The notes under the pieces are model-generated. The model searched no databases. It saw only the letters and a list, made by a program, of their open reading frames with translations, and was not told where the DNA came from. A stretch of 64,000 nucleotides of DNA, taken from the NCBI RefSeq assembly GCF_000384315.1, contig NZ_ARVW01000001.1:3906157-3970156 (forward strand), given 5' to 3'. How positions within the stretch are numbered: position 1 is the stretch's first letter; each line of letters begins with the position of its first letter. The position numbers were made by a program, and so were the translations under genes. Source of the stretch: Amycolatopsis nigrescens CSC17Ta-90 (GTDB taxonomy: Bacteria > Actinomycetota > Actinomycetes > Mycobacteriales > Pseudonocardiaceae). Positions 1,710 to 15,903 of this stretch are shown here, one piece after another.

Positions 1710-2570
1710 ATGGTGAACGTGCTGCTGTTGGGCGCCGCCGGAGTAGCCGGCCGCGCTGCGCTGACCGCTCTGACGAGCGAGGGTCATCCGGTCACGGTCT
1801 GGGACAACCAGCGCCTCCCGGTGGGGGTTCCGGTCGCCGGCGGGCCGATCAGCGTGGACCTGGTCGGCGGTTTCGACGCCGTGGTGGACCTGCGGCCGAG
1901 CTGCGAGCTGCCCGACCGCGGGGTCGCGGACCTGGTCAGCACCTGCATCGCGGCCGGTGTTCCCCGGCTCATCCGCGGTTCGGTCACCTGCGGCTACGCC
2001 GACGGCGGGGACGGCTACGTGGCCGCGGACCGGACCGTCCGGGACGCCGTCGGCGGCCTCGCCTGGGCGATGGCGGTGGAGCGGCAGGTCGCGGACTTCA
2101 CCGCCGCCGGCGGGGCCGGGGTGGTGCTGCGGTTCGGCAAGTCCTACGGGCCGGACGACGTGGCGACCTGGCGGATGCTGAACCTGGCCAGGCGCGGCTG
2201 GTGCCTGCTGCCCGGCCGTGCCGGCGCCTGGCACAGCGCGATCCACACCGCCGACGTCGGCACCGCGGTCGAGGCAGCATTGCGGGCACGGGCCGGAATC
2301 TGGGACGTGGCCGACTCGGAACCCTTGCGCCGCGCCGATCTGGTGCAGGTACTGGCGAGCGTGGTGGGCAGGCCCACCTTGCGCCGCCCGCCTCGCTGGC
2401 TGGCCGCCGCGGCCGGTGCGTCGTCGATGGGCCGTTCGCACCGGGTCTGCAGCACCGAGTTCCGCGCCGAGACCGGCTGGGCCCCTTCGGTGCCGAGCCG
2501 CCGCGACGGGCTGCCGGTGGTCGCCAGGCAGCTTTCCTTTCCCTGCGCCGATACCAGCGTCCGGAGCTAG
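1710..2570 (+). CDS. NAD-dependent epimerase/dehydratase-like protein (atypical SDR)
   Basis: The protein is 286 residues with an N-terminal Rossmann nucleotide-binding start, VNVLLLGAAGVAGRAAL, matching the GxxGxxG pattern of extended or atypical short-chain dehydrogenases. The substrate is unknown. A catalytic YxxxK is not obvious, so it could be a sugar-nucleotide epimerase relative or an NmrA-like sensor. The ATG at 1710 is preferred over the upstream in-frame ATG at 1653 because GGAGG lies at 1701-1705. Its TAG stop shares CTAG with the stop of the convergent GAF-ANTAR gene (2567-2570), so the two coding ends overlap by four bases. Confidence 0.8.
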   Translation: MVNVLLLGAAGVAGRAALTALTSEGHPVTVWDNQRLPVGVPVAGGPISVDLVGGFDAVVDLRPSCELPDRGVADLVSTCIAAGVPRLIRGSVTCGYADGGDGYVAADRTVRDAVGGLAWAMAVERQVADFTAAGGAGVVLRFGKSYGPDDVATWRMLNLARRGWCLLPGRAGAWHSAIHTADVGTAVEAALRARAGIWDVADSEPLRRADLVQVLASVVGRPTLRRPPRWLAAAAGASSMGRSHRVCSTEFRAETGWAPSVPSRRDGLPVVARQLSFPCADTSVRS

Positions 2571-3298
2571 ACCTTGGGGGGTTTGCCGAGCAGGCGGTCG
2601 GTGGACAGCGATCCGGTCACGACCTCGTTCGCGACCTCGCTCAGCCGGCGGTTGTTCGTCCGCGCGTACCCGCGCAGCGCGTTGAACGCCGCGCCGAGGT
2701 CAGTGCCGAGCCGTTCGGCCACCAGCCCCTTGGCCTGCTCGATCACCACCCTGCTGTTCAGCGCCGACTGCAGCTGTTCGATCAGCACTTCCTGGCTGCG
2801 CATGGAACGTTCCTGGAGCAGGCCGATGGTGGCCACCGAGACCAGCGCGTTGGCCGTGCGGATCGCGTCCTGGTCCAGTTCGCCGGGTTTGTCGCGGAAC
2901 AGGTTGAGCGCGCCGATCACTTCGTCGCGCAGCCGCATCGGCAGTGCGTGCACCGACTTGAAACCGGCCGCTTTGGCCGCGCTCGGGAACCTGGTCCACC
3001 GCGAGTTCGACGCGGTGAGATCGGGGTGGCTGATCGTGGAGCCGGTCCGGAAGGCGTCCAGGCAGGGACCTTCGTCGTTCTGGAGCTGGAGCAGCTCGAG
3101 CAGCCGTACCCGCTCGTCCGAGCTGGCGATCAGCTGCAGCTCGCCGGCCGTGTTGGCCAGCAGCAGCCCGGCCGCGTCGATGTCCAGCAACTCCACGCAC
3201 CGATCCACCAGCAGGTGCATGAAATCGATGACGTCGAAGTCGTCGATCAGGGTGTCTGCTAGTTCGACGAACGTGTCGACGAGGCGCTCATGACTCAT
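2567..3298 (-). CDS. GAF-ANTAR transcription antitermination regulator
   Basis: The protein is 243 residues with an N-terminal GAF sensory domain (about 20-160) and a C-terminal ANTAR RNA-binding domain (about 175-235, with the pattern LQSALNSRVVIEQAKGLVAE). ANTAR proteins bind paired hairpins in leader RNA and prevent termination; the GAF domain may sense a small ligand. The start at 3298 (MSHERL) is chosen because a near-perfect Shine-Dalgarno, GGAGGTGA, lies just upstream. The open frame extends to 3313 but that ATG is part of the ribosome site. A second GAF-ANTAR gene lies immediately upstream on the same strand, which suggests an ancient duplication or paired sensors. The target RNA is not identified. 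Confidence 0.9.
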   Translation of the reverse strand: MSHERLVDTFVELADTLIDDFDVIDFMHLLVDRCVELLDIDAAGLLLANTAGELQLIASSDERVRLLELLQLQNDEGPCLDAFRTGSTISHPDLTASNSRWTRFPSAAKAAGFKSVHALPMRLRDEVIGALNLFRDKPGELDQDAIRTANALVSVATIGLLQERSMRSQEVLIEQLQSALNSRVVIEQAKGLVAERLGTDLGAAFNALRGYARTNNRRLSEVANEVVTGSLSTDRLLGKPPKV

Positions 3299-3352
3299 CG
3301 AGGTCACCTCCATGGGGTTGCCAGGGTACTTGTCTTGCGCGCGGTCTGTGCG

Positions 3353-4168
3353 TCAAGCGGGCGTCTCTTCCGGTGAGAAGCGGATTCGCCGGGTCACCAC
3401 GTCGGTGGCCAGCTCGGTCAAGGTCCGCTGGTCGGTGAAGGCTCTGGCGCGTAGCCGGGCGAAGGCGTCTTCCATGCTGACGCCGAGCTGCCCGGCGACC
3501 ATGCCGGTGGCCTGGTGCACCTGCGGGCTGTTCAGCGGCAGGCCGTCGCCATCCGGCACGCCGTCTCCGACCGGGCGTCCGGCCTGCTCGTCCAGCAGCA
3601 GCCGCAGGGCCAGGTCGGCGAAGACCACCGAGTTCGCCAGCGCGTCGCTGCCCAGCGAGCCCACTTCGACCTGGTGCAGGGTGAGCACGCCGACCGGGAT
3701 GGCGCCGATGCACAGCGGCAGTGCGAACACCGCCCGCGCCCCGGCGTCCACGGCCAGCGGCGCGAACAGCGGCCAGCGGCGGGCGCCGGCCGACGTGCCC
3801 AGATCGCTGACCAGCACCGGCCGGCGCTGGTCAGCGGCGTCAACGGAGGGGCCCTCGCCGGTGGTGACCTGCAGCTCTGCCAGGCTCCCTGCCAGCGCGT
3901 CCGTGGCGTACTTCAACTCTGGCCAGCCGGAACCGTTGGCGAGGGTCAGCGCGGCGCCGCTCACCGTGAGCCGGTGCACCGCGGCGTCGCACAGCACTCG
4001 CGGGGACACCACCACGGCCTTGGCCGCCGCGTGCTCGGACAGCCAGTTCCACACCCGGACGATCCGGCTGCCGTCGCTGACCAACGCGATCGCCTGGCCC
4101 TTTCGGCTGTGCACACCCGGCAGCGGCTCGTACGGCCGGCCGGTTCGCGGTTCAGCGAGTGGCCGCAC
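3353..4168 (-). CDS. GAF-ANTAR regulator, second copy
   Basis: The C-terminal about 60 residues (LNSPQVHQATGMVAGQLGVS and onward) form an ANTAR domain, preceded by a GAF domain with conserved phrases such as GEGPSVDA and ALPLCIGAIPVGVL. The GTG start at 4168 overlaps the end of the desaturase gene by 17 bases but has no clear ribosome site. A TTG at 4084, giving a protein that begins VSDGSRIVRVWNWL, fits the family length better and is a serious alternative. Together with the downstream GAF-ANTAR gene it probably forms a transcription unit with the desaturase, which would make lipid or redox state a possible signal. That link is inference. Confidence 0.85.
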   Translation of the reverse strand: MRPLAEPRTGRPYEPLPGVHSRKGQAIALVSDGSRIVRVWNWLSEHAAAKAVVVSPRVLCDAAVHRLTVSGAALTLANGSGWPELKYATDALAGSLAELQVTTGEGPSVDAADQRRPVLVSDLGTSAGARRWPLFAPLAVDAGARAVFALPLCIGAIPVGVLTLHQVEVGSLGSDALANSVVFADLALRLLLDEQAGRPVGDGVPDGDGLPLNSPQVHQATGMVAGQLGVSMEDAFARLRARAFTDQRTLTELATDVVTRRIRFSPEETPA

Positions 4169-5174
4169 GCAGTGGTGCGCCGACTGCGTGTAGATGTTCT
4201 AGCACGTACCCGTAGGTCCGCAGCCAGCCGCACTGGGCGTAGTCGATCCCCCGCTGGCGGCAGAATTCGCGCACGATCGGCTGAGCGCGGCGCAGGTGCG
4301 GCCTCGGTAGGGTCGGGAAGAGGTGGTGCTCGATCTGGTAGTTCAGTCCGCCGAGCGCGAAGTCCACCCAGATGCCACCGCGCACGTTGCGCGACGTGAG
4401 CACCTGCTTGCGCAGGAAGTCCAGCGTGTGTCTTTCGGCCAGGGTGGGCATGCCCTTGTGCCCCGGGGCGAACGAGCATCCCATGTAGACACCCCAGAGG
4501 CACTGGTGCACCAGGATGAACACCACCGCGGTGAGCGGCGAGAGCACCAGGAACACCGCGGTCAGGTAGAGCGCGAAATGCCCGGCCAGCAACAGAATCT
4601 CGCCGCGCCGCGCCTTCACCCCGGGGTGCCGCAGCGCCTGCACGCTGGACGCGTGCAGGCTCAGCCCTTCGAGCAGCAGCAGCGGGAAGAACAGGAACGC
4701 CTGGTACTTGGCCATCCAGCGCAGGAAACCCCGTTTGTGCCCGCCCTGGCCGACGGTGAAGGCGAGTGCGGGGATGTCCAGGTCGGGATCGTCCTGTTCG
4801 TGGTTCGGGTTGGCGTGGTGGCGGTTGTGCTGGCCGAGCCACATCCCGTAGCTGATCCCCACCAGTCCACCGTGGACATAGCCGATCAGGTCGTTGGCCT
4901 GGCGTTTGCGGAAGATCTGCTTGTGCCCGGCGTCGTGCCCGATGAAGGCGAACTGGCCGAACATCACGGCGAAGAAGGCGGCCAGGAACAGCTGCCACCA
5001 GGAGTCGCCGAGGAAGGCGAAAGCCACCCAGCCGCCGGCGAACGCGAGGATGTTGAGCCCGATCTTCACCGCGTAGTAGCCGTACCGCCGGCGCAGCAGG
5101 CCGGCCTGCCGGATCTCGCGCGAGAGTTCGGCGTAGTCGCTGTTCTGCGTGGGCAGGGCCTCGGTGGAGGTCAT
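4152..5174 (-). CDS. membrane fatty-acid desaturase, front-end type (QIEHH)
   Basis: The protein is 340 residues and is an integral-membrane di-iron desaturase. All three histidine boxes are present: HDAGH at about 80, HNRHH at about 116 and QIEHH at about 280. The glutamine in the third box is typical of the delta-6/linoleoyl-CoA-like branch rather than the delta-9 stearoyl type found at 41475. It inserts a double bond into an acyl-CoA or lipid-bound acyl chain using O2 and reduced ferredoxin. Hydrophobic segments flank the boxes (about 35-75 and 170-215). The start at 5174 (MTSTEAL) is preferred over 5276 because the extra 34 residues look non-coding and a purine-rich site precedes 5174. 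The final bases overlap the GAF-ANTAR gene. Confidence 0.9.
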   Translation of the reverse strand: MTSTEALPTQNSDYAELSREIRQAGLLRRRYGYYAVKIGLNILAFAGGWVAFAFLGDSWWQLFLAAFFAVMFGQFAFIGHDAGHKQIFRKRQANDLIGYVHGGLVGISYGMWLGQHNRHHANPNHEQDDPDLDIPALAFTVGQGGHKRGFLRWMAKYQAFLFFPLLLLEGLSLHASSVQALRHPGVKARRGEILLLAGHFALYLTAVFLVLSPLTAVVFILVHQCLWGVYMGCSFAPGHKGMPTLAERHTLDFLRKQVLTSRNVRGGIWVDFALGGLNYQIEHHLFPTLPRPHLRRAQPIVREFCRQRGIDYAQCGWLRTYGYVLEHLHAVGAPLRAATR

Positions 5175-5299
5175 CAAACGCCCGCTTCCCGGTTGGCGTC
5201 TACAGCGCACCGGGGTCTCGGGCGGCACCGCTCGCGGTTCTTCCCGCGTTCCCCACCAGCGTCCCACCCCCACCACCTATCAGCAACCACCCCCGGTTA

Positions 5300-5376: not shown

Positions 5377-6390
5377 TCAGTGGCGGGGCTTGGCGATGAT
5401 GGCGGTGTTCTCCAGCGGCAGGTCGGCGGTGCGTTCGACGTCGAAACCGGCCCGGTTCAGCATCGAGGTGAAGCTCTCCAGCGTGCGGTGCTTGCCACCG
5501 GCGGTCATCAGCAGGTGCAGGTCCCACATCGACGGCAGCACGGTGGCTTCGGCGTCCGCGGTGGCCCGCACCAGCCGGTCGAACACCAGCACGCGCCCGT
5601 CCGCGGGCAGCTCGCGCCGGCACCGCTCGAACACGCCGACCACGTCGTCGTCGGCCCAGCCGGCCAGCACCCGGCAGAACATGTACACGTCCCCGCCAGG
5701 CGGCACGGACTCGAACATGCTGCCGCCGGCCAGCTCGACCCGGTCCAGGCCGACCGTGGCGGTCAGGTTCTCGCGGGCGAGCGGCACCACGTGCTCGCGG
5801 TCGAACAGGATGCCGGTGGCGTCCGGGGTGGCGGACAGGATGGCCGCCAGCAGCTGCCCGTTGCCGCCGCCGACGTCCACCACCTTCTTGCCGGAGAAGT
5901 CGAACACGTCCGGCACGTAGTCGAAGAAGACGTTGCCGGCCTTCATCGCGCGCTGGAAGCGGTCGGCCGCGTCCTCGTGCTCGCCGAGATAGCTGTACAG
6001 CGGCTGGCCGTACGCCTCCTCGAACCCGGAGCCGACCGTGGTGATGGCCTTCTTCGGGTGTCCCCAGGCGGTGTAGAACTCCTCGCCGTAGAGCAGGCAC
6101 ATCTCGCGCATGGAGTCGGGCTCGTCCAGCAGCGTCCGGCTCAGCGCGGTGTTGCGGAAGCCGGTCTCGCCGTCGCCTTCGAACACCTTCATCGCGACCA
6201 GCAGCCGCATCAGGCGGTGGATGCCCTCTTCCTTCGAGCCGGTCGACGCCGCCAGCTCGACGGTGGTGACCCGGCCCGCCTCGATGTGATCCGGCAGTCC
6301 CAGCTTGACCGCGGTGTAGAGGGCCTGTGCCCGCCACCCGCCGGTGATCACTTCCAGCGCTTCGCGGGTGGCCTGCAAGTCGACCTTCAC
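5377..6390 (-). CDS. SAM-dependent methyltransferase of the phenazine cluster (PhzM-like)
   Basis: The protein is 337 residues with the two-part plan of plant-type O-methyltransferases: an N-terminal winged-helix dimerisation domain (about 10-95) and a C-terminal Rossmann domain with the SAM loop VVDVGGGNG at about 170-178. Length and plan match PhzM of Pseudomonas. It is likely to methylate the phenazine core on O or N. The segment where this family usually has LHDW, carrying the catalytic histidine, reads LAGW here (about residue 227), so the usual general base is missing. The GTG start has GGAGG nine bases upstream. It is 37 bases downstream of phzB and probably cotranscribed with it. Confidence 0.85.
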   Translation of the reverse strand: MKVDLQATREALEVITGGWRAQALYTAVKLGLPDHIEAGRVTTVELAASTGSKEEGIHRLMRLLVAMKVFEGDGETGFRNTALSRTLLDEPDSMREMCLLYGEEFYTAWGHPKKAITTVGSGFEEAYGQPLYSYLGEHEDAADRFQRAMKAGNVFFDYVPDVFDFSGKKVVDVGGGNGQLLAAILSATPDATGILFDREHVVPLARENLTATVGLDRVELAGGSMFESVPPGGDVYMFCRVLAGWADDDVVGVFERCRRELPADGRVLVFDRLVRATADAEATVLPSMWDLHLLMTAGGKHRTLESFTSMLNRAGFDVERTADLPLENTAIIAKPRH

Positions 6391-6427
6391 TCTGCCTAAC
6401 CTCCGGTTCGGGCGGTGCTCAGGTGGG

Positions 6428-6919
6428 TCAGGTGGGGATGCCCTCGCGCCTGATCACCGGCACCTCGATGCCAAGCGCGCGCAGCTGGTTGTACGGGTTC
6501 ATGAATTCCCGATTCTGCACGATCTTGCCTTCCTTCAGCAAGAACGAGTGGATGAAATGGTTCTCGTAGTACCCCTCGGGGTAGCCGGGGAAGAGAATCT
6601 TGCCCTTCCCGTCGCATTCCACCCAGAATCGGTTCGGGTCCTGCGTCTCGAAGATCTCGATGTTGTACCAGACCCAGTCCGGAAAGACCTGGAGCGACCA
6701 GGCGCCGTGCGCCTTGAGCTTTTCGCGGCCACGGGAAACGATCGGTTCCTTGGTGTCGCCGGTGTACAGGCCGCCGCTGCCGTCCTCGGTGAAGAGCTGG
6801 TACCGCGTCAGGCGGCCTTCACCTTTTCTGCTCATGTAGTCCGCGACCACTTCGCGGTGGACGCGCCGCAACTCCACGTCGTCGGAGAATCCTTGATTGT
6901 TCGAGGTGACGTCGGTCAT
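6428..6919 (-). CDS. phzB: PhzA/PhzB-family phenazine biosynthesis protein
   Basis: The protein is 163 residues and belongs to the delta5-3-ketosteroid-isomerase/NTF2-like fold family of PhzA and PhzB. It catalyses the condensation of two PhzF products into the tricyclic phenazine precursor. Family phrases are easily seen, such as REVVADYMSRKGEGRLTRY, LFTEDGSGGLYTG and YYENHFIHSFLLKEGK. Only one copy is present, as is usual outside Pseudomonas, which has a phzA/phzB duplication. GAGG about ten bases upstream supports the ATG at 6919. The gene is divergent from phzF and shares a 149-bp promoter region holding the StrR-type site at 6998-7026. Confidence 0.95.
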   Translation of the reverse strand: MTDVTSNNQGFSDDVELRRVHREVVADYMSRKGEGRLTRYQLFTEDGSGGLYTGDTKEPIVSRGREKLKAHGAWSLQVFPDWVWYNIEIFETQDPNRFWVECDGKGKILFPGYPEGYYENHFIHSFLLKEGKIVQNREFMNPYNQLRALGIEVPVIRREGIPT

Positions 6920-6997
6920 AATCGAAACCTCACAAAGTGTTGGAGAGGCTGGCCTGCCCGAACTTTTTTAGTGGCCGACCAGGCGATCTGTCAACGT

Positions 6998-7026
6998 GTC
7001 CAACTGACGATTTTCCCTGGTTGGAC
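6998..7026. promoter_or_regulatory. Candidate StrR-type operator between phzB and phzF
   Basis: The site reads GTCCAACTG, 11 bases, TGGTTGGAC. The outer 7 bp of each arm are perfectly inverted. The total length of 29 bp and the N11 spacer match the published StrR operator architecture GTTCGACTG-N11-CAGTCGAAC; the left half matches at 7 of 9 positions and the right half at 5 of 9. It is 43 bases upstream of phzF and 79 bases upstream of phzB. The StrR-like regulator encoded at 12755-13783 is the obvious candidate ligand. Confidence 0.55.
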
Positions 7027-7068
7027 GCCCCGCTTGGCGCCCAGGACCGGCGCCGGTAGCTTGAGCGA

Positions 7069-7905
7069 ATGCACGATTATGTGGTCGCCGATGTCTTTAC
7101 CGGTACCCCGCTGGAGGGTAATCCCGTCGCCGTCTTCCTGGACGCGGCAGATTTGTCCCCAGCGACCATGCAGCGCATCGCCCGTGAAATGAATCTTTCG
7201 GAAACCACTTTCGTGCTCCCGCCGGAGAACGGCGGCGACGTGCGGGTCCGGATCTTCACCCCGGTCAACGAACTTCCCTTCGCCGGCCATCCGACCCTGG
7301 GCACCGCCATCGTGCTCGGTGGCTCGACCACGGCGGAACGCATCGAGCTGGAAACCCATATGGGCACCATCCCGTTCGATTTCGACCGTTCCGACGACCG
7401 GCTGCTCTCCGCCAGCATGCGCCAGCCGATTCCCACCTGGGGCCCGTACGAGCAGGCCGAAGAGCTGCTCGACGCGCTCGGCTGCGAGTCCTCCATCCTG
7501 CCGGTGACCGTCTACCACAACGGGCCGCGGCACGTTTTCGTTGGACTGGAAAGCGTTTCGGCGCTGTCCGCGGTCAAACCGGACCTGCTCGCGCTGGCCC
7601 ACCACCTGGACATGGCCGCGAACTGCTTCGCCGGCTCCGGCCGGCACTGGCGGATGCGGATGTTCTCGCCCGCCTACGGGGTGGCCGAGGACGCGGCCAC
7701 CGGTTCGGCGGCGGGCCCGCTCGGAGTGCACCTGGCCAGGCACGGCCTCGCCCCGTTCGGCGAGCAGATCGAAATCCTGCAGGGCGTGGAGATGGGCCGC
7801 CCGTCCACCATGCTCTCCACCGTGCGCGGCACCGCCGACAAGATCGAGCAGGTGGACGTGGCCGGTTCCGCGATCGTGATCGCCCGTGGCACCCTGCAGA
7901 TTTGA
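7069..7905 (+). CDS. phzF: trans-2,3-dihydro-3-hydroxyanthranilate isomerase PhzF
   Basis: The protein is 278 residues with the diaminopimelate-epimerase-like two-lobed fold. It isomerises DHHA to the ketone that dimerises into the phenazine skeleton. The catalytic glutamate is in NLSETTF at position 45, the number used for Pseudomonas PhzF, and the active-site histidine in GHPTLGTA is at 74. A family phrase, EDAATGSAAGPLG, follows near residue 205. It is the only core phz gene on the plus strand; it diverges from phzB and converges on phzG. The ribosome site is weak. Its stop is followed three bases later by a perfect palindrome at 7909-7950. Confidence 0.97.
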   Translation: MHDYVVADVFTGTPLEGNPVAVFLDAADLSPATMQRIAREMNLSETTFVLPPENGGDVRVRIFTPVNELPFAGHPTLGTAIVLGGSTTAERIELETHMGTIPFDFDRSDDRLLSASMRQPIPTWGPYEQAEELLDALGCESSILPVTVYHNGPRHVFVGLESVSALSAVKPDLLALAHHLDMAANCFAGSGRHWRMRMFSPAYGVAEDAATGSAAGPLGVHLARHGLAPFGEQIEILQGVEMGRPSTMLSTVRGTADKIEQVDVAGSAIVIARGTLQI

Positions 7906-7908
7906 CGT

Positions 7909-7950
7909 CGTGAGTGGAAAGTGTTGCCAGGGCAACACTTTCCACTCACG
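7909..7950. terminator. Perfect 20-bp inverted repeat between convergent phzF and phzG (palindrome family B)
   Basis: The arms 7909-7928 and 7931-7950 are exact inverse complements, CGTGAGTGGAAAGTGTTGCC and its partner, with only two bases between them, so the top pairs must open to form a loop. It fills the 50-bp gap between the two convergent stops and should act as a bidirectional terminator. A close relative, 18 of 20 positions paired, sits at 36572-36613. Confidence 0.75.
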
Positions 7951-7955
7951 AGGCT

Positions 7956-8588
7956 TTAGGGCTGGAGCCGCTGGCTGGTCCAGGTGTCGCCGTCGAGGTC
8001 GTAGCGCAGCCGGCGGTGCAGCCGGTCCGGGCTGCCCCGCCAGAACTCCACTGTGGACGGAGCGAGCCGGTAGCCGACCCAGGCGGCGGGGCGGGGCAGT
8101 GCTTCGCCAGGCTCGGCCAGCTTGGCGGCCTCGGCGCGCAGTTCCTCCTCGTCGGCCAGTGGCGCGCTCTGGTCCGCGGCGACCGACATCGGGTGCGTGC
8201 TGATCGGGCGGGCGTTCCACAAAGCGTCGGATTCGGCGTCCGGCAGCTGCGTGACGCGCCCGCCGAAGATCACCTGCTGGCTGGTCTCGCGCCAGTAGAA
8301 CACCCCCGAGGCCCAGTCGTTGCCGGCCAGGTCACGGCCCTTGGGGCTGGTGTTGTGGCTGGTGAACACCCAGCCTTCGGCGGTGATCTTGATGGTCTGC
8401 ACGATCCGGTTGGACGGACGGCCCTTGGCGTCCGCGGTGGCCAGCGCGACCACTCCCGGCTCCCGCACCCCGAGCTCGACCGCGGTTTCGAACCACTTGC
8501 GCAGCAGCGCGATCGGGTCCGCCGGTGGTGTGTCGAACTCGGGTAGCTCCAGCGCGATCGGCGGTGCGAACGTCGGCGCGTTGTTCAC
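7956..8588 (-). CDS. phzG: FMN-dependent phenazine oxidase PhzG (pyridoxamine-phosphate-oxidase fold)
   Basis: The protein is 210 residues with the split-barrel flavin fold of pyridoxine 5'-phosphate oxidase. PhzG oxidises the unstable hexahydro/tetrahydro-phenazine dicarboxylates towards PCA or PDC. The FMN-binding region RPSNRIVQTIKITAEGWVF and the C-terminal PAAWVGYRLAPSTVEFW, shared with PdxH, are visible. The GTG start at 8588 follows GGAGGAG. It is the last gene of the minus-strand phz operon, 34 bases after the small YdhR-like gene. Confidence 0.93.
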   Translation of the reverse strand: MNNAPTFAPPIALELPEFDTPPADPIALLRKWFETAVELGVREPGVVALATADAKGRPSNRIVQTIKITAEGWVFTSHNTSPKGRDLAGNDWASGVFYWRETSQQVIFGGRVTQLPDAESDALWNARPISTHPMSVAADQSAPLADEEELRAEAAKLAEPGEALPRPAAWVGYRLAPSTVEFWRGSPDRLHRRLRYDLDGDTWTSQRLQP

Positions 8589-8622
8589 TTACTCCTCCAC
8601 ATGTTTCCGCTGATGATGCGTC

Positions 8623-8958
8623 TCAGTTGCCCAGCGCCAGCCCGAGCCCGGACAGGACCGCCTGGTCGTAGCGCCCCTCCACGGTGGCTTCGACGTCGAA
8701 CCGTACTCGTTCGGTCGGCCCGTAACCGATCAGTTCGGCCGCCCGGTGCGGGGGCAGCGGCTGCTTGGTCGCCTCCTCGGACTCCCACAGCATCACCGCG
8801 CCCCAGCGGTTTCCCTCGCGGTCGGAGATCCAGAACTTGAAGCGCAGCCCGCGGACGTCCTTCCACGGATCGACGCCCTCGTCCCGCAGGTAGACCCGCA
8901 GCGTGTCGATGGTCTGCTCGGAGTCGGTCAGGTCCCACCAGGCAATCGTTGCCCTCAT
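8623..8958 (-). CDS. Small YdhR/ABM-like protein embedded in the phz operon
   Basis: The protein is 111 residues and begins [10 protein letters not shown]. The central phrase LRFKFWISDREGNRWGAVML followed by WESEEA resembles the ferredoxin-like (dimeric alpha-beta barrel) YdhR or antibiotic-biosynthesis-monooxygenase families. The assignment rests on pattern only. Its ATG overlaps the phzE stop as ATGA (8955-8958), so translation is coupled to phzE, and phzG follows 34 bases on. It is not part of the known core phzBCDEFG set. That position suggests a cofactor-free tailoring oxygenase, a chaperone for unstable intermediates or a binding protein. The catalytic role is unknown. Confidence 0.8.
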   Translation of the reverse strand: MRATIAWWDLTDSEQTIDTLRVYLRDEGVDPWKDVRGLRFKFWISDREGNRWGAVMLWESEEATKQPLPPHRAAELIGYGPTERVRFDVEATVEGRYDQAVLSGLGLALGN

Positions 8959-10832
8959 ACGCCCAATACCTCTTTCATCCGGTCGGTGACGATCCTGGGT
9001 CCGTCTTGGGTGAGTACCGATTCGGCGTGGAACTGCATGGACGCGAAATGCGGTCCGCGCAGCGCGTGCACCTCGCCAGTTTCGGCGTCCCGGCTGATCT
9101 CCACCAGCCCTACGCCTGGCCGGTCCACCTCGTTCTCGCTGCTGTGCGCGGCGAAGGTGTTGTAGAAGCCGACCCGTTCGCGCGCGCCGAACAGGTCGAT
9201 CTCCCGTTGCGCGCCCTGGTTGGGCACGTCCCGGCGGACCAGCTTCAGGCCGAGGTGCGTGCTCAGCACCTGATGGCTGAGGCAGACCGCGATGAACGGC
9301 CGCCGCTCCCGCAGCAGGGTGCCGATCGCGGAGTGCAGGTGCGCGATCCGGGGATGGCTCAGGTCGCCGGGGTCGCCTGGACCTGGCCCCATGATCACCA
9401 GGTCGTGCTCGTCGAAGTGGTAGGGCTGGTCGAACCGGCGCACGGTGACCGTCAGGCCCAGCGAGCGGAGCTGGTGGTCGATCATCGAGGTGAAGGTGTC
9501 CTCCGCGTCCACCACCAGCACTCGCCGCCCGGCCAGTCCCGGCTCGGCTGTCGCGCGCGCGGCGTTGTCGGCCAGCCAGAACCGGGCCAGCCCGGTGTTG
9601 CGCCTGCCGAGCGCGGCCCGCACGTCCGGGTGATCGCCGAACCTGGCCGGCCGTTCCGCGTCCAGCGCAGCCAGCAGCCCGGCCGCCTTCGCCCTGGTTT
9701 CGGCCACCTCGGACACCGGGTCGGAATGGCGCACCAGGGTGGCGCCGACGCCGATCTCCACCCGGCCGCTGGAGTCGATGTCGGCGGTGCGGATCAGGAT
9801 CGACGAGTCCAGCGTGCGCTCGCCGCGCTCGTCCCGGCCGATCAGCGCGATGATGCCGCTGTAGTAGCCGCGGCCACGCGGCTCGTACCGGCCGATCACC
9901 CGGCAGGCGCTCTCCAGCGGGCTGCCGGTCACCGTCGGCGCGAACATCGTCTCGCGCAGGATCTCGCGCGGGTCGCGGCTGGAGCGGCCCTTGATGAAGT
10001 ACTCGGTGTGCGCCAGCCAGGCCATCTCCTTGAGGTAGGGGCCGACCACCCGGCCGCCGTTCTCGCAGATGCGGGCCATCATCTTCAGCTCTTCGTCCAC
10101 CACCATGTACAGCTCGTCGGTCTCCTTGCCGTCCGCGAGGAAGGCCATCACCTCGGACAGCGTCGGCCCGGTCGGCGGGTACCGGTAGGTGCCGCTGATC
10201 GGGTTCATCACCGCCACGCCCTCGTGCAGGCTGACATGCCGTTCCGGGGTCGCGCCGACGAAGGTCCGGGTGCCGGTGTGCACGACGAAGGTCCAGTACG
10301 CGCCCGATTCCCGCTCCCACAGCCGCCGGAAGAAGGTCAGCGCGCTGTGCGCGCCGTAGCCGGTGATCTCCGCGATGAACGAGCGCTTGATCACGAAGTT
10401 GGCGCCCTCGCCGGTGCCGATCTCCTCGGCGACCACCTTGCGCACGGTTTCCGCGTAGGTCTCGTCGTCCACGTCGAAAGCGCCGCCGGCCAGCCGGATG
10501 TCCTCGTCCGGGATGCGCGCCAGCACCTCGGCGGCCGGCACTCGCGCCTGCCCGGTCACCCGCATCGCGATCAGCGGGGACCCGTCGTCGACGCAGTCGA
10601 ATCCCCGTTCGCCGATCTGCCGGTAGGGCACGATCGCCAGCACCTCGTGCCCGGGCCCGCCGTCTTCCTCCGGTACCGGCAGCCCGGCAAGAGTGTCCGG
10701 TGTGGACACTTCGCCGACCAATACCTCCAGGCAGTGCCTGCCGGTCGACTCGGGGCGGTGCAGCAGGGCGAACGGCGGTGGCTTCGGTCCGAGCACCTGG
10801 CCGAGCAGGTCTGTGTTCACGGCAGGGTTCAT
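8955..10832 (-). CDS. phzE: 2-amino-2-deoxyisochorismate synthase PhzE
   Basis: The protein is 625 residues, the usual PhzE length, and fuses an anthranilate-synthase component I-like chorismate domain (about 1-400) to a class I glutamine amidotransferase (about 430-620). It converts chorismate and glutamine to ADIC. Visible signatures are [18 protein letters not shown] and [10 protein letters not shown] in the chorismate domain. The amidotransferase cysteine is C517 in AVCLSHQVL, with HAES near residue 603. The serine in CLSHQ, where most amidotransferases have glycine, is as I recall it for PhzE. The ATG at 10832 overlaps the phzD stop as ATGA. The larger upstream frame to 11381 lies over phzD and is not used. 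Confidence 0.96.
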
Positions 10833-11458
10833 GGCAGGACCTCTTTGGCGGTGAGCACCACGGCGCAGCGCTCGGCCGCGTACTCCACGGCCAGCCGGTG
10901 GTAGTCCTCGGTGAAGTCCGCGATCGCGTCCGCCACCACGAAGGCCTGGATGTCGTTGGTGAACGCCTCCACCGCGCTCATCAGCACGCCGACATGCGCG
11001 TACACCCCGCAGATCACCAGCTGGTCGCGGCCGAGCTCGCGCATCCGCTCGAGCAGGTCCGAGCGGAAGAACGCGCTGTAGCGCCATTTCGTGAACACCC
11101 AGTCGGACGGCCGGGGGGTCAGCGGCTCCACCACCTCCCTGTCCACCGGGTCCACCCGCATGCCGGGTCCCCAGAAGTCCTTCAGCAGCCCGCGTTGCTC
11201 CTCGGTCATGCCGCCCGGCTGTGCGGTGTAGGCGATCGGCATGCCGAGCTCGTCGCACCGGTCGCGCAGCCAGGCGGTGTTGGCGACCAGCTGTTCTCTG
11301 ATGCCGTCGGGGAACGGTTGCAGGAAATAGCGCTGCATATCGTGAATCAGCAGCACCGCTCTGGCCGGATCCACTGCCCACCGCGCGACGTTGCCGGGCA
11401 GCTCGGCCGCCATCGGCAACGGATACGGCGCAATCGGAGGAATACCCACCACTACCAT
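10829..11458 (-). CDS. phzD: Isochorismatase PhzD
   Basis: The protein is 209 residues of the isochorismatase hydrolase family and hydrolyses ADIC to DHHA and pyruvate. The catalytic aspartate is in [10 protein letters not shown] (D40) and the catalytic lysine in TKWRYSAF (K124). These are two more than the Pseudomonas numbering D38/K122, which hints that the true start may be a GTG two codons in. CGVYAHVGV carries the third active-site region and ends in a cis-peptide-type turn. phzC ends 34 bases upstream and phzE starts inside the stop codon, so the three genes are cotranscribed. Confidence 0.96.
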
Positions 11459-11492
11459 CCCCTCTTCGAAAAGTCTCTTGTGCGGACGAGCG

Positions 11493-12659
11493 TCAGCCGT
11501 TCCAGGCCGAGACCACGTCGACGGCCTGTCGTGGATTGAGCCGCGGGTCGCACAGGCTGGTGTACTTGTCGCCGACCTGGCCGACCCCGGCGTCCCCGCG
11601 CACGCATTCGGTGACGTCGTCCGGGGTGGTCTCCAGGTGCAGCCCGCCGGCCACCCCGCCGGCAGCGCCGACGGCGAGCTGGAACCCCTCGACCTCGCGG
11701 ATCACCGTTTCCAGGAAACGGGTCTTCAGCCCGGCCGGGGTGTTCACCGTGTTGCCGTGCATCGGGTCGCAGAGCCAGATCACCGGATGCCCCGCCGCGC
11801 GCACGGCCACCACCAGCGGGACCAGCAGCCTGGTCACCGCCTCCGCGCCCATCCTGGCGATCAGGGTGAGCCTGCCCGGCTCCCGGCCGGGGTCCAGCCG
11901 CTCGCACAGCGCGACCAGCTCGTCGGTGGTGGTGTTCGGGCCAACCTTGCAGGCCAGCGGGTTGACCACGTCCGCGAGCATCGCCACATGCGCCCCGTCC
12001 ACCTGCCTGGTCCGCTCGCCGATCCACGGCCAGTGCGTGGAGGTGAGCAGCGGGCGACCCTGCTCGTCCTGGCGCAGCATCGGCATCTCGTAGTCCATCA
12101 GCAGCGCTTCGTGGCTGGTCCACACCGGCGGTTCGATCCGTGACCTGGCGTCGCGCCAGCCGAGCAGTTCGATCGCGTCGCTGGCCGCCCGGTAGCCGCT
12201 GAGCAGCCGGCGAGGGTCGGCCCGGCGGCCGTCCGGGTCCGGTTCCGGGCTGTTCACCATGTGCCCGCGGTACACCGGCAGCTCCACGTCCCCGACCAGC
12301 TCGGTGGGTCTGGATCTCGGTTTGGCGAACTGGCCGGCGATCCGGCCGGCCCGCACCACCGGCCGGTGGGTGTTCATCTTCAGCACCCCGGCCAGCACGT
12401 CGAGCAGCCCCGCCTTGCGGGCGACGTAACCGGGGGTGCATTCCGCTGGGTCTTCCGCGCAGTCGCCGGCCTGCACCACATGGGCCTGGCCGGTGGCCAC
12501 ACCGGCCAGTATCGAACGCAGGGTCCGCACCGCTTCGGCGTCGACGAGCCCTGGCAGCGCCGCCAGCTCCCGGCGCACGCTCAGCACTTGCGCGTCGTCT
12601 TCCCACTGCGGCTGCTGCCGGGCCAAGAACACCGGATTGTCGAGCAGAGCGTGGTCCAC
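11493..12659 (-). CDS. phzC: Type II 3-deoxy-7-phosphoheptulonate (DAHP) synthase PhzC
   Basis: The protein is 388 residues of the plant-type (class II) DAHP synthase family. It condenses phosphoenolpyruvate and erythrose-4-phosphate at the entry of the shikimate pathway and so raises chorismate supply for phenazine synthesis. Family phrases include [29 protein letters not shown] and CDPMHGNT. The GTG start at 12659 is preferred because GGAGAG precedes it; the open frame runs to 12884 but the extra 75 residues are low-quality and overlap the regulator gene. It heads the structural part of the minus-strand operon. A TTCGCC-TGGT-GGCGAA palindrome lies 41 bases upstream (12700-12715). Confidence 0.93.
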
Positions 12660-12754
12660 TGATCTCTCCAAAGGGGAATGGGGTGGTACGCATACCGTTT
12701 TCGCCTGGTGGCGAACGACAGTGGTGAAATCGGAATGGAAAGACCCGCCCGCCG

Positions 12755-13783
12755 CTACACTGCGCCGGTCGTGTCCCTTTCGAGTTGTTCCGCGAACATT
12801 TTCCAGACCTCGGCGCATTCCATCGCCACGTTCGCGATGGTGTCCCGGCAGTGCGGCGGCACACTGTCGATGATGGTTGCCCATTTCTCCTCACTCATCG
12901 CGTGCACGTCGAGCAGACGCAGCAGCATCCGGCCGGTCTCGGTGAACCTGAGGGTGGGGTCCGCCCGGAGGCGGTGCAGCACCGAAGCCCGGCCGGGTGT
13001 CCTGGCGGCCTCCGGTTCTCCTCGTCGTTCCGGTTTCGCCGCCGGCTCGGCGGCCTGTTTCGGGTCGCGTTGTTTCGGCAGGATCGGGTTCTCACCGCAG
13101 CGCAGCCTGCTGCGCACCGCGCGCGCGGTCTCCGGTGAGATGCCGGCGGCCCTGGCCACCTGGCGCAGCGAAAGATGCGGGTTGTCCGCCATCAGCTCGC
13201 CGGCCAGCCGCCGCCGTTCGGCGCTGTTGATCGGGCGCACCCTGCCGTCCTGGCCGATCCGGACGTCGGGCTGCGGCACCGCACCGCCGGGACGGCGGCG
13301 CAGCTCCGCGATCGTCTTCGCGGACAGCCCGGTCACCGAGGCGAGCAGCCGGTCCGACCACTGCGGATGCGAGGTGATGATCCTGGCCGCGGCGGCCTTG
13401 CGGTCGGCCGGCGAGAGCGGCAGGCCGTGCGCCGCGTTCGCCTTGACCGCGAGCACGAAGGCGTCCGCCTCGTCACCGTCGAAGAACCGCACGGAGATCT
13501 CGGTTTCCGCGCGAAGCTGGGCGGCCCGCAGCCGGTGCAGCCCGTCGATCACGCGCATGGTGGCCCGGTGCACGATGATCGGCGGCAGCTCGTCCTGGGT
13601 GTCCGCGAGCGCGCGGGCGTGCTCCGGGTCGGCGCCCGCGGTGCGCGGGGAGCCGGCCACCGACAGCGCGGCGATGGCGACCCTGACCACCGGTTCCTCG
13701 GCGGGCTGTCGTTTTTCCGTCAACTTTCCGTTTGTGTCAACGCATCCGAATTCTCCCGGAACGCGGACAGCTAGATCTGTCAC
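12755..13783 (-). CDS. StrR-like (ParB-N domain) pathway-specific regulator
   Basis: The protein is 342 residues with an N-terminal ParB/Srx-like domain (about 35-110; ELPPIIVHRATMRVIDGLHR, then RFFDGDEADAFVLAV) and central helix-turn-helix segments (about 145-225). This matches StrR and the glycopeptide regulators Bbr and Tei15*. These proteins activate antibiotic clusters by binding 29-bp palindromes with an N11 spacer. The C-terminal third (about 230-342) is charged and may be regulatory. It lies 95 bases upstream of phzC on the same strand and is probably autoregulated and dedicated to the phz genes. The GTG start at 13783 has a ribosome-like GAGG almost abutting it. Confidence 0.87.
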   Translation of the reverse strand: MTDLAVRVPGEFGCVDTNGKLTEKRQPAEEPVVRVAIAALSVAGSPRTAGADPEHARALADTQDELPPIIVHRATMRVIDGLHRLRAAQLRAETEISVRFFDGDEADAFVLAVKANAAHGLPLSPADRKAAAARIITSHPQWSDRLLASVTGLSAKTIAELRRRPGGAVPQPDVRIGQDGRVRPINSAERRRLAGELMADNPHLSLRQVARAAGISPETARAVRSRLRCGENPILPKQRDPKQAAEPAAKPERRGEPEAARTPGRASVLHRLRADPTLRFTETGRMLLRLLDVHAMSEEKWATIIDSVPPHCRDTIANVAMECAEVWKMFAEQLERDTTGAV

Positions 13784-14514
13784 CTCGTAACACCCCAGTC
13801 GTCATAACTCAACTCAACGAGATCGAGCGCGGCGCTAGACGGCTCACAGGTCGATGCGGGGATCTTGAAACATCAACTTGTTCTACTGCGTTCACTACCC
13901 GGACGTTCGGCCCGTGGTTCCCGCTGCGCGCCCTACCGTGCTCGGGCGACCAGTCTTGATCTTCCCCAGTTCATCTTGACGCAAGCCTTTCCCCAGTCGT
14001 CATATAAGGGCAGAGTGCCACAACTCGTGCCGTGACGACAGGTCTTTCAGTAGCTCATGCGGTGATCTTGGCGAGTCTGGTTGCCGCAACCTCACGATCT
14101 TGGCTGTGTGGGCGAAGCCACATACGGTGCGATGCAGTATTCGATGACGAATGCCAATGTCCCAGTCGTATGATTTGCCGCCTTCTGCCAGCTTGCCCAG
14201 TGCGGAACGCGGGGTGTAGGTCAGTTTGGTCAGCACCGCGGTCAGCTTGGTCAGCGAGCGGCCGGCGAAACCCTGACCTGGTGGACAAAGGCATTGATCA
14301 AGAGGGTGTTGAGCTGCGGAAACATCGGTTCCGGTCGCGCCGGGGCAAAGCTGAGAACGTGCCCGACTTGATAAACTAATACTTTCCGCACTTGACATCG
14401 GCTAAGCGCTGCCCTTAAGGGCAAAGACGCTACTCCGATCGGGCGGCGGTGTCTCGCGGTCCGAGCCCGCCGAGGCCGAACTGTGGCAATCTTGGTGGGG
14501 AACCATGACACTGC
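13784..14514. other. Gene-poor, lower-GC interval upstream of the phz regulator
   Basis: No convincing gene is seen in these 731 bases on either strand. Base composition is visibly poorer in GC than the flanks. It holds an exact 14-bp direct repeat (CCCCAGTCGTCATA at 13793-13806 and 13991-14004), shorter echoes near 13966 and 14161, a degenerate StrR-type site at 13880-13908, a perfect palindrome GCCCTTAAGGGC at 14411-14422 and a TTGACA at 14392. Open frames of 80-130 codons inside it have poor codon bias and no recognisable domain. It probably combines promoters of the two divergent regulators with decayed sequence. Confidence 0.5.
13880..13908. promoter_or_regulatory. Degenerate StrR-type site upstream of the phz regulator
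   Basis: GTTCTACTG at 13880-13888 matches the StrR left half-site GTTCGACTG at 8 of 9 positions. After an 11-base spacer, CGGACGTTC matches the right half at only 5 of 9. It is about 97-125 bases upstream of the regulator start, where an autoregulatory site would be expected. The weak right half makes this tentative. Confidence 0.3.
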
Positions 14515-15903
14515 ATGCGCGGTTTGGGGGCTGCCTCTGTGGACGGTTTTTCCTCGCTCGCCGTGTACCTGGACAGACTGCACTGGTCGCCGGAACGGCT
14601 GGCCCGTGAAATAAACCGGTTACACGGTCCCGGAACCGTTAGCAGCAAGGCTCCGTACGGTTGGTTGAAGGGATCGTACCCACGAGGGCGGGTTCCCGCC
14701 ATGGTTTGCGGAATTCTGTCCGAACAACTCGGTGAAATCATTGATGTCGGAAAGATCTGGCCCCACCGGTTCTCGAGCGGGGGTCGAGATTTCTCCGATA
14801 ACGACCTGCAACTGCCTTGGTCCGCCGAGTACATCGGCCGGGCGATGGATTCTTTGCTGGGGCCAGCCGAACAAGATGTTCCCGGCATGTTCACTCCGGT
14901 GCCGAGTTCGGTACTGGTCTCCCTCGGGGTGGACTGGCTGACCGCCACCGACCGGCCACCGCCCGCACGCCGGTGCGGGGAGGAGGTCACCGCCGGCGCG
15001 ATGGAGCTGCTGGCCGGCCGGATCGGCCAGTTGCGCGGGCTGGACGACGCGCAGGGCGCGCTGGTGGCGAACTGGATGGCGCACGACCTGCGCTGGGCGA
15101 TGCGGCTGGCGCGCACCGGTTCCTACGACCAGTCCACCGGGACCCAGCTCTACCGCGCGATCGCCGAGCTGGCCCAGCTGGCCGGCTGGCTGCTGGTCGA
15201 CCTCGGCCAGCGAGCCAGGGGGCAGCGCTATCTGCTCGCCGGGCTGCGGGCCGCGAGCCTGGCCGGCGACCGCGACCTCGGTGCGTACATCCTTTCCTGC
15301 CTCAGCTACCACCTAGTCTGGAGCGGCAACGCCCGCGATGCCGTGCGGCTGGCGAAGATCGCCCGCAACGGCGCCGCCTGCTCGTCGGCCGGGATGGCCG
15401 GTTCGCTGCTGGCCACCCGGCAGGCGCGGGCGCACGCCAGCCTCGGCGAGCAGCGGGAGTGCCAGCAGGCGCTGGAGGAGGCGGCGCAGGCTTTCGTCCG
15501 GCCGTCTCCCGGCGAACCGCCTTCGTGGAGTTCCTGGGTGACGTTGCCGGTGCTGGAGGCGGACGCCGGTCGCGCGCGACTGGACCTCGGCGACCCGCGG
15601 CGCGCCGAGCAGCATCTGGTGACCGGAATCCGGCGGCTGGACCAGAGCCGCCGCCGCGACCGGATGCTGCATTCGATGTCGGTGGCCGAAGCGCGGCTCG
15701 CGCGGGGCGAGGTGGACGGCGCGGCCGAAGTCACCCGCGTCGCGCTGGAACTCGGCAGGGAGATCGAGTCCACCCGCGCCCGCAGCAGGCTGGTCGGCCT
15801 GCGCGCCCACTTCGCCGGGCACGATGCCGTGACGGCGAAGGAAATGACCGACGACATCGATCAGGTGCTGGCCGCGCTGCGGCCGTCCGGCCGGCGCCTT
15901 TGA
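14515..15903 (+). CDS. TPR-containing helix-turn-helix-like transcriptional regulator
   Basis: The protein is 462 residues. The first about 75 residues read like a DNA-binding segment (SPERLAREINRLHGPGTVSSKAPYGWLKG, split across two helices), and the rest (about 150-450) is alanine- and leucine-rich tetratricopeptide-like helices. This architecture is common in actinobacterial XRE/TPR regulators that respond to peptide or metabolic cues. A GTG at 14539 (MDGFSSLAVYL) is an alternative start, because the first eight residues are poorly supported. It diverges from the phz regulator across a 731-bp gap, so it could be a cluster-situated regulator, but that is only positional. Confidence 0.75.
   Translation: MRGLGAASVDGFSSLAVYLDRLHWSPERLAREINRLHGPGTVSSKAPYGWLKGSYPRGRVPAMVCGILSEQLGEIIDVGKIWPHRFSSGGRDFSDNDLQLPWSAEYIGRAMDSLLGPAEQDVPGMFTPVPSSVLVSLGVDWLTATDRPPPARRCGEEVTAGAMELLAGRIGQLRGLDDAQGALVANWMAHDLRWAMRLARTGSYDQSTGTQLYRAIAELAQLAGWLLVDLGQRARGQRYLLAGLRAASLAGDRDLGAYILSCLSYHLVWSGNARDAVRLAKIARNGAACSSAGMAGSLLATRQARAHASLGEQRECQQALEEAAQAFVRPSPGEPPSWSSWVTLPVLEADAGRARLDLGDPRRAEQHLVTGIRRLDQSRRRDRMLHSMSVAEARLARGEVDGAAEVTRVALELGREIESTRARSRLVGLRAHFAGHDAVTAKEMTDDIDQVLAALRPSGRRL

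Follow-up and report, generated by a model that had tools for sequence, protein, structure and literature searches.

Background

The closest described counterparts of the locus reported here are the phzB to phzG core of Pseudomonas, Burkholderia and Streptomyces, the activators StrR, Bbr, Dbv4 and Tei15*, which control glycopeptide or aminoglycoside clusters, and NosA, the terminal-amide synthase of nosiheptide, which according to PMC4525488 requires K49 and E101 and acts on an imine derived from an enamide. The consensus operator of Bbr and Dbv4 is given as GTCCAR(N)17TTGGAC (PMC6022936), and the AoStrR1 site GTCCAN18TTGGAC is described as shown by electrophoretic mobility shift assay (PMC7852140). 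The locus itself lies in a stretch of 64,000 nucleotides (the window) of Amycolatopsis nigrescens CSC17Ta-90 (contig NZ_ARVW01000001.1, positions 3,906,157 to 3,970,156), whose genome of 9.11 Mb is held in a single contig. It is best read as an intact phenazine cluster under StrR control of the glycopeptide style; ordinary as a cluster, it has one unexpected part, a small NosA-like protein. The whole combination, in which a StrR-type activator acts at an operator between phzF and phzB, the product is methylated at N5 and the NosA-like protein serves as an accessory factor of the core, is considered probable, with some reserve.

Phenazine core

All six enzymes of the described core are shared, five of them being closest to true Phz structures (the top PDB match is a Phz-named or Phz-like enzyme for each of PhzB, PhzD, PhzE, PhzF and PhzG), and these five intact enzymes place the locus among phenazine biosynthesis clusters. 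The window differs from that core in having no phzA, a divergent phzF, the gene order phzC-D-E-nosA-G and the added NosA-like gene. Genes were called from codon-position GC, Pfam and NCBIfam family scans and PDB sequence comparisons (Table 1). A sequence-only reading had proposed a complete and intact core (phzB, C, D, E, F and G) in an actinomycete; family scans, PDB matches and open frames agree with it, no in-frame stop occurs in the core phz, methyltransferase or StrR-like reading frames, and the residues that it named (E45 and H74 of PhzF, D40 and K124 of PhzD, C517 of PhzE) stand at exactly the numbers given. For phzC, whose open frame extends back to 12884, the start was picked by eye: a GTG accompanied by GGAGAG, which resembles a ribosome-binding site. 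The PhzC product scores 393 against the NCBIfam class II model, under the cut-off of 615. PhzC would supply the shikimate pathway, and PhzE, PhzD, PhzF, PhzB and PhzG would convert chorismate to phenazine-1-carboxylic acid (PCA), phenazine-1,6-dicarboxylic acid (PDC) or both.

Table 1 Features of the phenazine locus (positions in the window; aa, amino acids)
Feature	Position	Strand	Details
PhzM-type S-adenosylmethionine methyltransferase	5377-6390	-	337 aa; PDB 2ip2 "Probable phenazine-specific methyltransferase", E 4e-87
phzB	6428-6919	-	163 aa; Pfam PHZA_PHZB 261 bits; PDB 3ff0, E 4e-74
phzB -10 (predicted), TAAAAA	6965-6970	-	18 nt from -35
phzB -35 (predicted), TTGACA	6989-6994	-	3 nt from operator
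StrR/Bbr/Dbv4-type operator (predicted)	6998-7026	.	GTCCAA-N17-TTGGAC = GTCCAACTGACGATTTTCCCTGGTTGGAC; between divergent phzF and phzB
phzF -10 (predicted), TAGCTT	7057-7062	+	6 nt before ATG
phzF	7069-7905	+	278 aa; divergent from other genes; PDB 1t6k, E 6e-117; E45, H74, D208 present
phzG	7956-8588	-	210 aa; NCBIfam phena_PhzG 322 bits (cut-off 270); PDB 1t9m, E 9e-64
NosA-like small protein	8623-8958	-	111 aa; ATGA overlap with phzE stop; PDB 4za1 (NosA), E 6e-24
phzE	8955-10832	-	625 aa; PDB 3r74, E 2e-225; C517 present
phzD	10829-11458	-	209 aa; PDB 1nf9, E 9e-99; D40, K124 present
phzC, class II DAHP (3-deoxy-D-arabino-heptulosonate 7-phosphate) synthase-like	11493-12659	-	388 aa from GTG 12659; Pfam DAHP_synth_2 414 bits
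StrR-type transcriptional regulator	12755-13783	-	342 aa, or 311 aa from alternative start GTG 13690

NosA-like protein

The NosA-like gene at 8623-8958 had been overlooked in the earlier gene list of the cluster, which was to that extent incomplete; its product is probably co-translated with phzE. The AlphaFold model of the protein (predicted local distance difference test score, pLDDT, 90) has NosA (4za1) as its best Foldseek match (E 1.8e-10), followed by weaker matches to ABM proteins or monooxygenases and to SnoaB (E about 1e-3), and the Pfam scan gave a weak ydhR match under the cut-off (E 0.01). Fold and catalytic pair are shared with NosA, K41 and E90 being the equivalents of K49 and E101. 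The window protein differs from NosA in ending at 111 aa without the proline-rich C-terminal substrate loop (NosA residues 112-151), in having phzE as its operon partner instead of a thiopeptide cluster with YcaO genes, and in its clade, phz-associated rows of the tree standing apart from those associated with ribosomally synthesised and post-translationally modified peptides (RiPPs) with support 99/99, a separation that carries a long-branch warning. In an alignment read by eye, each of the 27 phz-associated rows has the Lys, and 20 of them have the Glu. Names among the 120 homologues listed of 392 are "hypothetical", "uncharacterized" or, twice, that of PhzF.

Occurrence was followed in a sample of phz loci built with a PhzB query, which comprised 29 named loci and strong matches in genomes of the family (24 loci in 21 of 297 genomes). 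Twenty of the 23 family loci outside the window's genome were extended, and removal of four duplicates, pair members being identical over a 200-base test stretch, left 45 distinct loci (29 + 20 - 4). Profile search found a NosA-like gene in 27 of these 45; of the 37 loci with all three of PhzB, PhzD and PhzE, 26 have it. The 297 family genomes hold 25 NosA-like matches, 18 adjoining PhzB, two more adjoining PhzE (L101, L107) and five located elsewhere. Among 72,556 plasmid records there were 13 matches, 12 of them in phz clusters (six assigned from opened stretches and six because the matched region is annotated as PhzF or anthranilate synthase) and one, from S. camelliae, not. A NosA-like gene adjoins phzE in actinobacteria, myxobacteria and alpha-, beta- and gammaproteobacteria. 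On the Rhodococcus qingshengii plasmid pLP156 (L082:6980-8164) the NosA-like and PhzF parts form one fused protein of 394 aa (36 % and 52 % to the window proteins); in five further Rhodococcus plasmids the NosA-like match falls within a gene annotated as PhzF, of 377 aa in the plasmid that was opened, and Mpz5, a PhzF of 388 aa, may by its length be another such fusion.

Traces of the same gene appear in published phenazine clusters. A paper on Proteus from 2024 lists, between phzE and phzF, a hypothetical gene of 354 bp whose function is given as unknown and which may belong to the core; compared by position and length alone, it agrees with the NosA-like gene of an E. coli plasmid. The dermacozine cluster table has, between PhzE and PhzG, an entry of the YdhR family (PMC7143476). 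In the literature found on NosA, YdhR or thio_amide together with phenazine, no paper linked the small phz protein to NosA or described the fusion.

The intermediates of PhzF and PhzB are enol, enamine or imine species. Since NosA acts on an imine derived from an enamide, a tautomerase or hydrolase near the PhzF/PhzB step is the most economical guess, and as a working hypothesis the NosA-like protein is most likely an accessory core factor that would act there on enol or enamine-imine intermediates. The Rhodococcus fusion to PhzF, the place beside phzE in distant bacteria and the Lys shared with an enamide-processing enzyme point to a more specific proposal, held tentatively: a core enzyme, "PhzX", acting on the PhzF product as a Lys-dependent enol/enamine-imine tautomerase or imine hydrolase, which would speed or proofread the condensation of two molecules of 6-amino-5-oxocyclohex-2-ene-1-carboxylic acid and which Pseudomonas would have lost or never had. 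If the protein does act in the core, the textbook enzyme set, which derives from Pseudomonas, lacks a component that many other producers have, and the NosA-PhzF fusion makes such a role directly testable.

Several observations weigh against a core role. The phz clusters of Pseudomonas are not known to have a NosA-like gene, and 11 of the 37 loci with PhzB, PhzD and PhzE have none either, so that it is not universally required. The seven phz-associated rows without the Glu speak against a strict copy of NosA chemistry. The phz loci are, moreover, related to one another, and their counts measure conservation and not independent origins.

Other activities fit parts of the same evidence. The protein might set the balance of PDC and PCA, for example by shielding the first tricyclic intermediate from spontaneous decarboxylation, a role that we regard as rather doubtful. 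The PCA clusters of Pseudomonas are not known to carry the gene, and it is present both in the dermacozine cluster, whose route runs via a phenazine-1,6-dicarboxylic acid (YdhR-family entry, PMC7143476), and in the E. coli plasmid cluster, whose gene content resembles that of ehp, which leads to PDC (PMC3175449); products are known for few clusters, however, and the lomofungin gene table has no entry between lphzF and lphzE. A cofactor-free oxygenase of the ABM type, oxidising a reduced phenazine intermediate in place of any enamine or imine chemistry, would suit the ferredoxin-like fold, the matches to ABM monooxygenases and SnoaB and the sub-threshold ydhR match; it is unlikely, as NosA is by far the top match in both structure and sequence and a separate Pfam ABM protein is encoded near the NosA-PhzF fusion in Rhodococcus. 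Formation of a carboxamide, as by NosA at peptide ends, is what membership of a terminal-amide synthase family would suggest, and it is nevertheless very improbable: the substrate loop is absent here, while the L105 and L106 proteins carry long proline-rich tails, the counterpart of E101 is not universal, clusters having an asparagine synthetase for the amide also carry the NosA-like gene, and the pathway has no known serine-extended substrate. The accessory role near PhzF and PhzB is the one retained as hypothesis.

NosA-like genes also occur outside phenazine clusters. In L102, L108 and L109 they stand next to YcaO genes (Pfam), and these loci of the same family may represent thiopeptide or azole RiPP clusters not yet characterised; the gene of L106 is next to one for a DegT-family aminotransferase, and L105 is the last of the five family loci away from PhzB and PhzE. 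The S. camelliae plasmid gene (L086:8001-8348) is of the phz type and falls on the phz side of the tree, with no phenazine cluster around it.

StrR-type regulator and operator

No Pfam family matched the regulator at 1e-3, and there was no direct ParBc match. Its assignment to the StrR/ParB-N type, which the sequence-only reading had made, is borne out by its homologues, the 120 listed of 1981 carrying PF27534, many of them ParB-N (PF02195) and some the name "streptomycin biosynthesis protein", and by the ParB-like fold of its AlphaFold model (mean pLDDT 80.6), for which Noc/ParB structures are the best Foldseek matches (E 9e-6). An AsnC-type helix-turn-helix (HTH) match at residues 191-224 (E 0.0025, under the Pfam cut-off) coincides with model helices at 187-200, 206-213 and 217-228. 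With an N-terminal ParB-like domain, a central tri-helical, AsnC-like HTH, C-terminal helices and a consensus operator in its cluster, the regulator shares the described features of StrR, Bbr, Dbv4 and Tei15*; unlike these, it is encoded within a phenazine cluster, which it probably controls. The ParB-like domain keeps a conserved DG.HRLRA motif, which we presume may correspond to the ParB nucleotide-binding site. A database copy of 311 aa agrees with the start at GTG 13690.

The operator at 6998-7026, overlooked in the earlier account, which was incomplete in this point too, matches the published consensus perfectly. A looser 10-base pattern finds 13 sites in the genome, and this operator is the only one with all 12 bases; the loose pattern is uninformative by itself, because a reversed control gives 21 sites. 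Of the 12 other orthologous intergenic regions, 10 keep TTGGAC on the phzB strand, the exceptions being L070 and L074 (mean 0.6 and max 4 in 1000 shuffles), and in 7 of the 12 it is followed by TTGAC in the arrangement TTGGAC-N2..6-TTGAC (shuffle mean 0.002, max 1). The second half-site lies at a spacing of 17 in L005-L007 and of 16-18 in L015, L073, L074 and L075. Both half-sites at spacing 16-18 occur in 6 of the 14 StrR-bearing loci vs 3 of the 31 others; of these three, L005 and L075 share the cluster type, and in L012 the site is far from the phz genes. Outside this intergenic region, L007 has GTCCAG-N17-TTGGAC about 0.5 kb upstream of strR, and in the differently arranged phz cluster L065 of K. 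banguiense the perfect operator occurs twice, once immediately before strR. A TANNNT box stands 5-9 nt before the phzF start in 13/13 upstream regions, the window included (2000 mononucleotide shuffles: mean 0.46, max 4), which suggests a leaderless phzF transcript.

The StrR-type protein would be the pathway activator, binding the palindrome between the divergent genes, recruiting RNA polymerase at phzB, whose predicted -35 box the palindrome adjoins, and probably also at phzF, whose -35 box is probably adjacent too, and so turning on two indispensable core steps. If the operator assignment is true, expression of the cluster's own StrR could open up silent phenazine clusters in actinomycetes, and glycopeptide and phenazine StrR regulators may cross-talk via one shared site.

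The association of regulator and cluster is not confined to the window. By tblastn (E 1e-4) a StrR-like gene is present in 14 of the 45 distinct phz loci, those of L058 and L060 being only 42 % identical. Kibdelosporangium, Actinocrispum, Actinophytocola and others share the order StrR-phzD-phzE-nosA-phzG-(phzF divergent)-phzB-methyltransferase; so do Streptomyces lushanensis and MnatMP-M17, except that no phzG was found in the stretch. Among loci of this order phzC stands between strR and phzD in the window only. The view in the sequence-only reading that a StrR-type regulator is unusual in phenazine clusters is not upheld by this recurrence, and its statement that none is known from a described one is probably out of date: a survey that counts 52 StrR-like regulators in MIBiG, those of lipodepsipeptide clusters not included, cites in its supplement the paper on the phenazine esmeraldin (PMC10886168), and from that citation the esmeraldin cluster of S. 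antibioticus probably carries a StrR-like gene in common with the window. The lomofungin regulators lomo12 (342 aa) and lomo17 (337 aa), labelled as AsnC family in the gene table, may be StrR-like as well. The genome of K. banguiense contains two StrR-associated phenazine clusters that differ from each other (L009, L065).

Against control by StrR stand the scores of the regulator model (predicted template modelling score, pTM, 0.54; low whole-query TM-scores to ParB, <=0.33) and several results of the operator survey. A second genome site, at 2,020,607, fits the published R-degenerate consensus as well, the looser pattern is less frequent in the genome than its reversed control, and at two mismatches the window count is 2 vs 1.44 by chance. 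Over whole stretches the perfect 12-base operator is found in only 3 of the 14 StrR-bearing loci and in 1 of the 31 others (L005, whose contig ends before the expected strR). The second half-site is absent in L009, L033 and L070, which leaves L009 and L033 with one half-site in that region; in the StrR-bearing loci L076 and L077 the half-sites are 8 apart; and no two-half-site match occurs in L013, L018, L058 and L060, which carry StrR in differently ordered clusters. No StrR site was seen upstream of strR or phzC in the window, which leaves the control of the phzC-phzG genes unexplained.

With no operator seen upstream of strR and perfect operators in only 3 of the 14 StrR-bearing loci, the neighbouring StrR might be a chance capture or act elsewhere, with phzF and phzB under another regulator such as the NsdA-family neighbour at 14515, and the genome does hold a StrR paralogue; we judge this improbable. 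The perfect operator within the cluster is the sole 12-base match in the genome, strR precedes phzD in nine non-identical related clusters (L006, L007, L009, L015, L033, L073, L074, L076, L077), and NsdA is in none of the compared loci. In 24 other genomes of the genus the best match to NsdA by E-value is 31 % identical (one match of 57 % covers 70 residues only). Control by the StrR-type protein remains the preferred account.

The paralogue (G000:C1:7700476-7701237) is 54 % and 42 % identical to the regulator over two stretches. Upstream of strR a 14-nt direct repeat, CCCCAGTCGTCATA, occurs in identical copies at 13793-13806 and 13991-14004, 198 bases apart; considered as a StrR site, it was set aside as a direct repeat only, and it is a possible binding site of another regulator of strR.

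Methyltransferase and likely product

The second PDB match of the methyltransferase is 6c5b (E 6e-55), which we take to be LaPhzM. The catalytic His of O-methyltransferases, present in 6c5b (LLLHDW), is absent from the window enzyme (CRVLAGW) and from 2ip2 (SRIIGDL), and is also missing in 16/16 distinct cluster orthologues aligned (58-70 % identity), while relatives in Dyella (31-33 % identity) keep LLLHDW. Because the enzyme is PhzM-like and without this His, N5-methylation of the ring after core synthesis is likely. The earlier expectation of a methylated product is in this way sharpened, the PDB match and the motif both pointing to PhzM.

A methyltransferase closest to PhzM, without the catalytic His, is common to this cluster and the pyocyanin pathway; in contrast to the latter, the window cluster has no PhzS gene. 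A PhzS-like query, whose best PDB matches, 3c96 and 2rgj, are presumably PhzS, found no convincing match in the genome, the best being 39 % identical. PhzH is likewise not visible, the cluster having no asparagine synthetase, so that the sequence-only reading stands on both enzymes (it saw no prenyltransferase either, for which no search was made). Downstream of the methyltransferase, L009, L015, L074 and L077 have a gene belonging to a single family, which Pfam identifies in L009 as an asparagine synthetase; the window has no such gene. An unlinked asparagine synthetase at genome position 5,663,255, 71 % identical to the K. banguiense cluster asparagine synthetase, was considered as PhzH and dropped as a genus-wide enzyme (82-85 % in 6/6 same-genus genomes searched).

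Genomic neighbourhood

A strong PhzB match was found in the window's genome only, among the 23 same-genus genomes shown, and the phenazine cluster is sporadic within the genus. The NsdA-family regulator (14515-15903) is divergent from strR, and a comparison of the insertion site in 25 genus genomes, made with the fatty acid desaturase and the NsdA-like protein, gave only weak relatives of NsdA. The fatty acid desaturase (4152-5276) was rejected as a cluster member, with no match in related loci (tblastn, E 1e-4) and its family present in 25/25 genus genomes. Beside it, at 2567-4168, are two adjacent GAF-ANTAR proteins, which are possible antiterminators.

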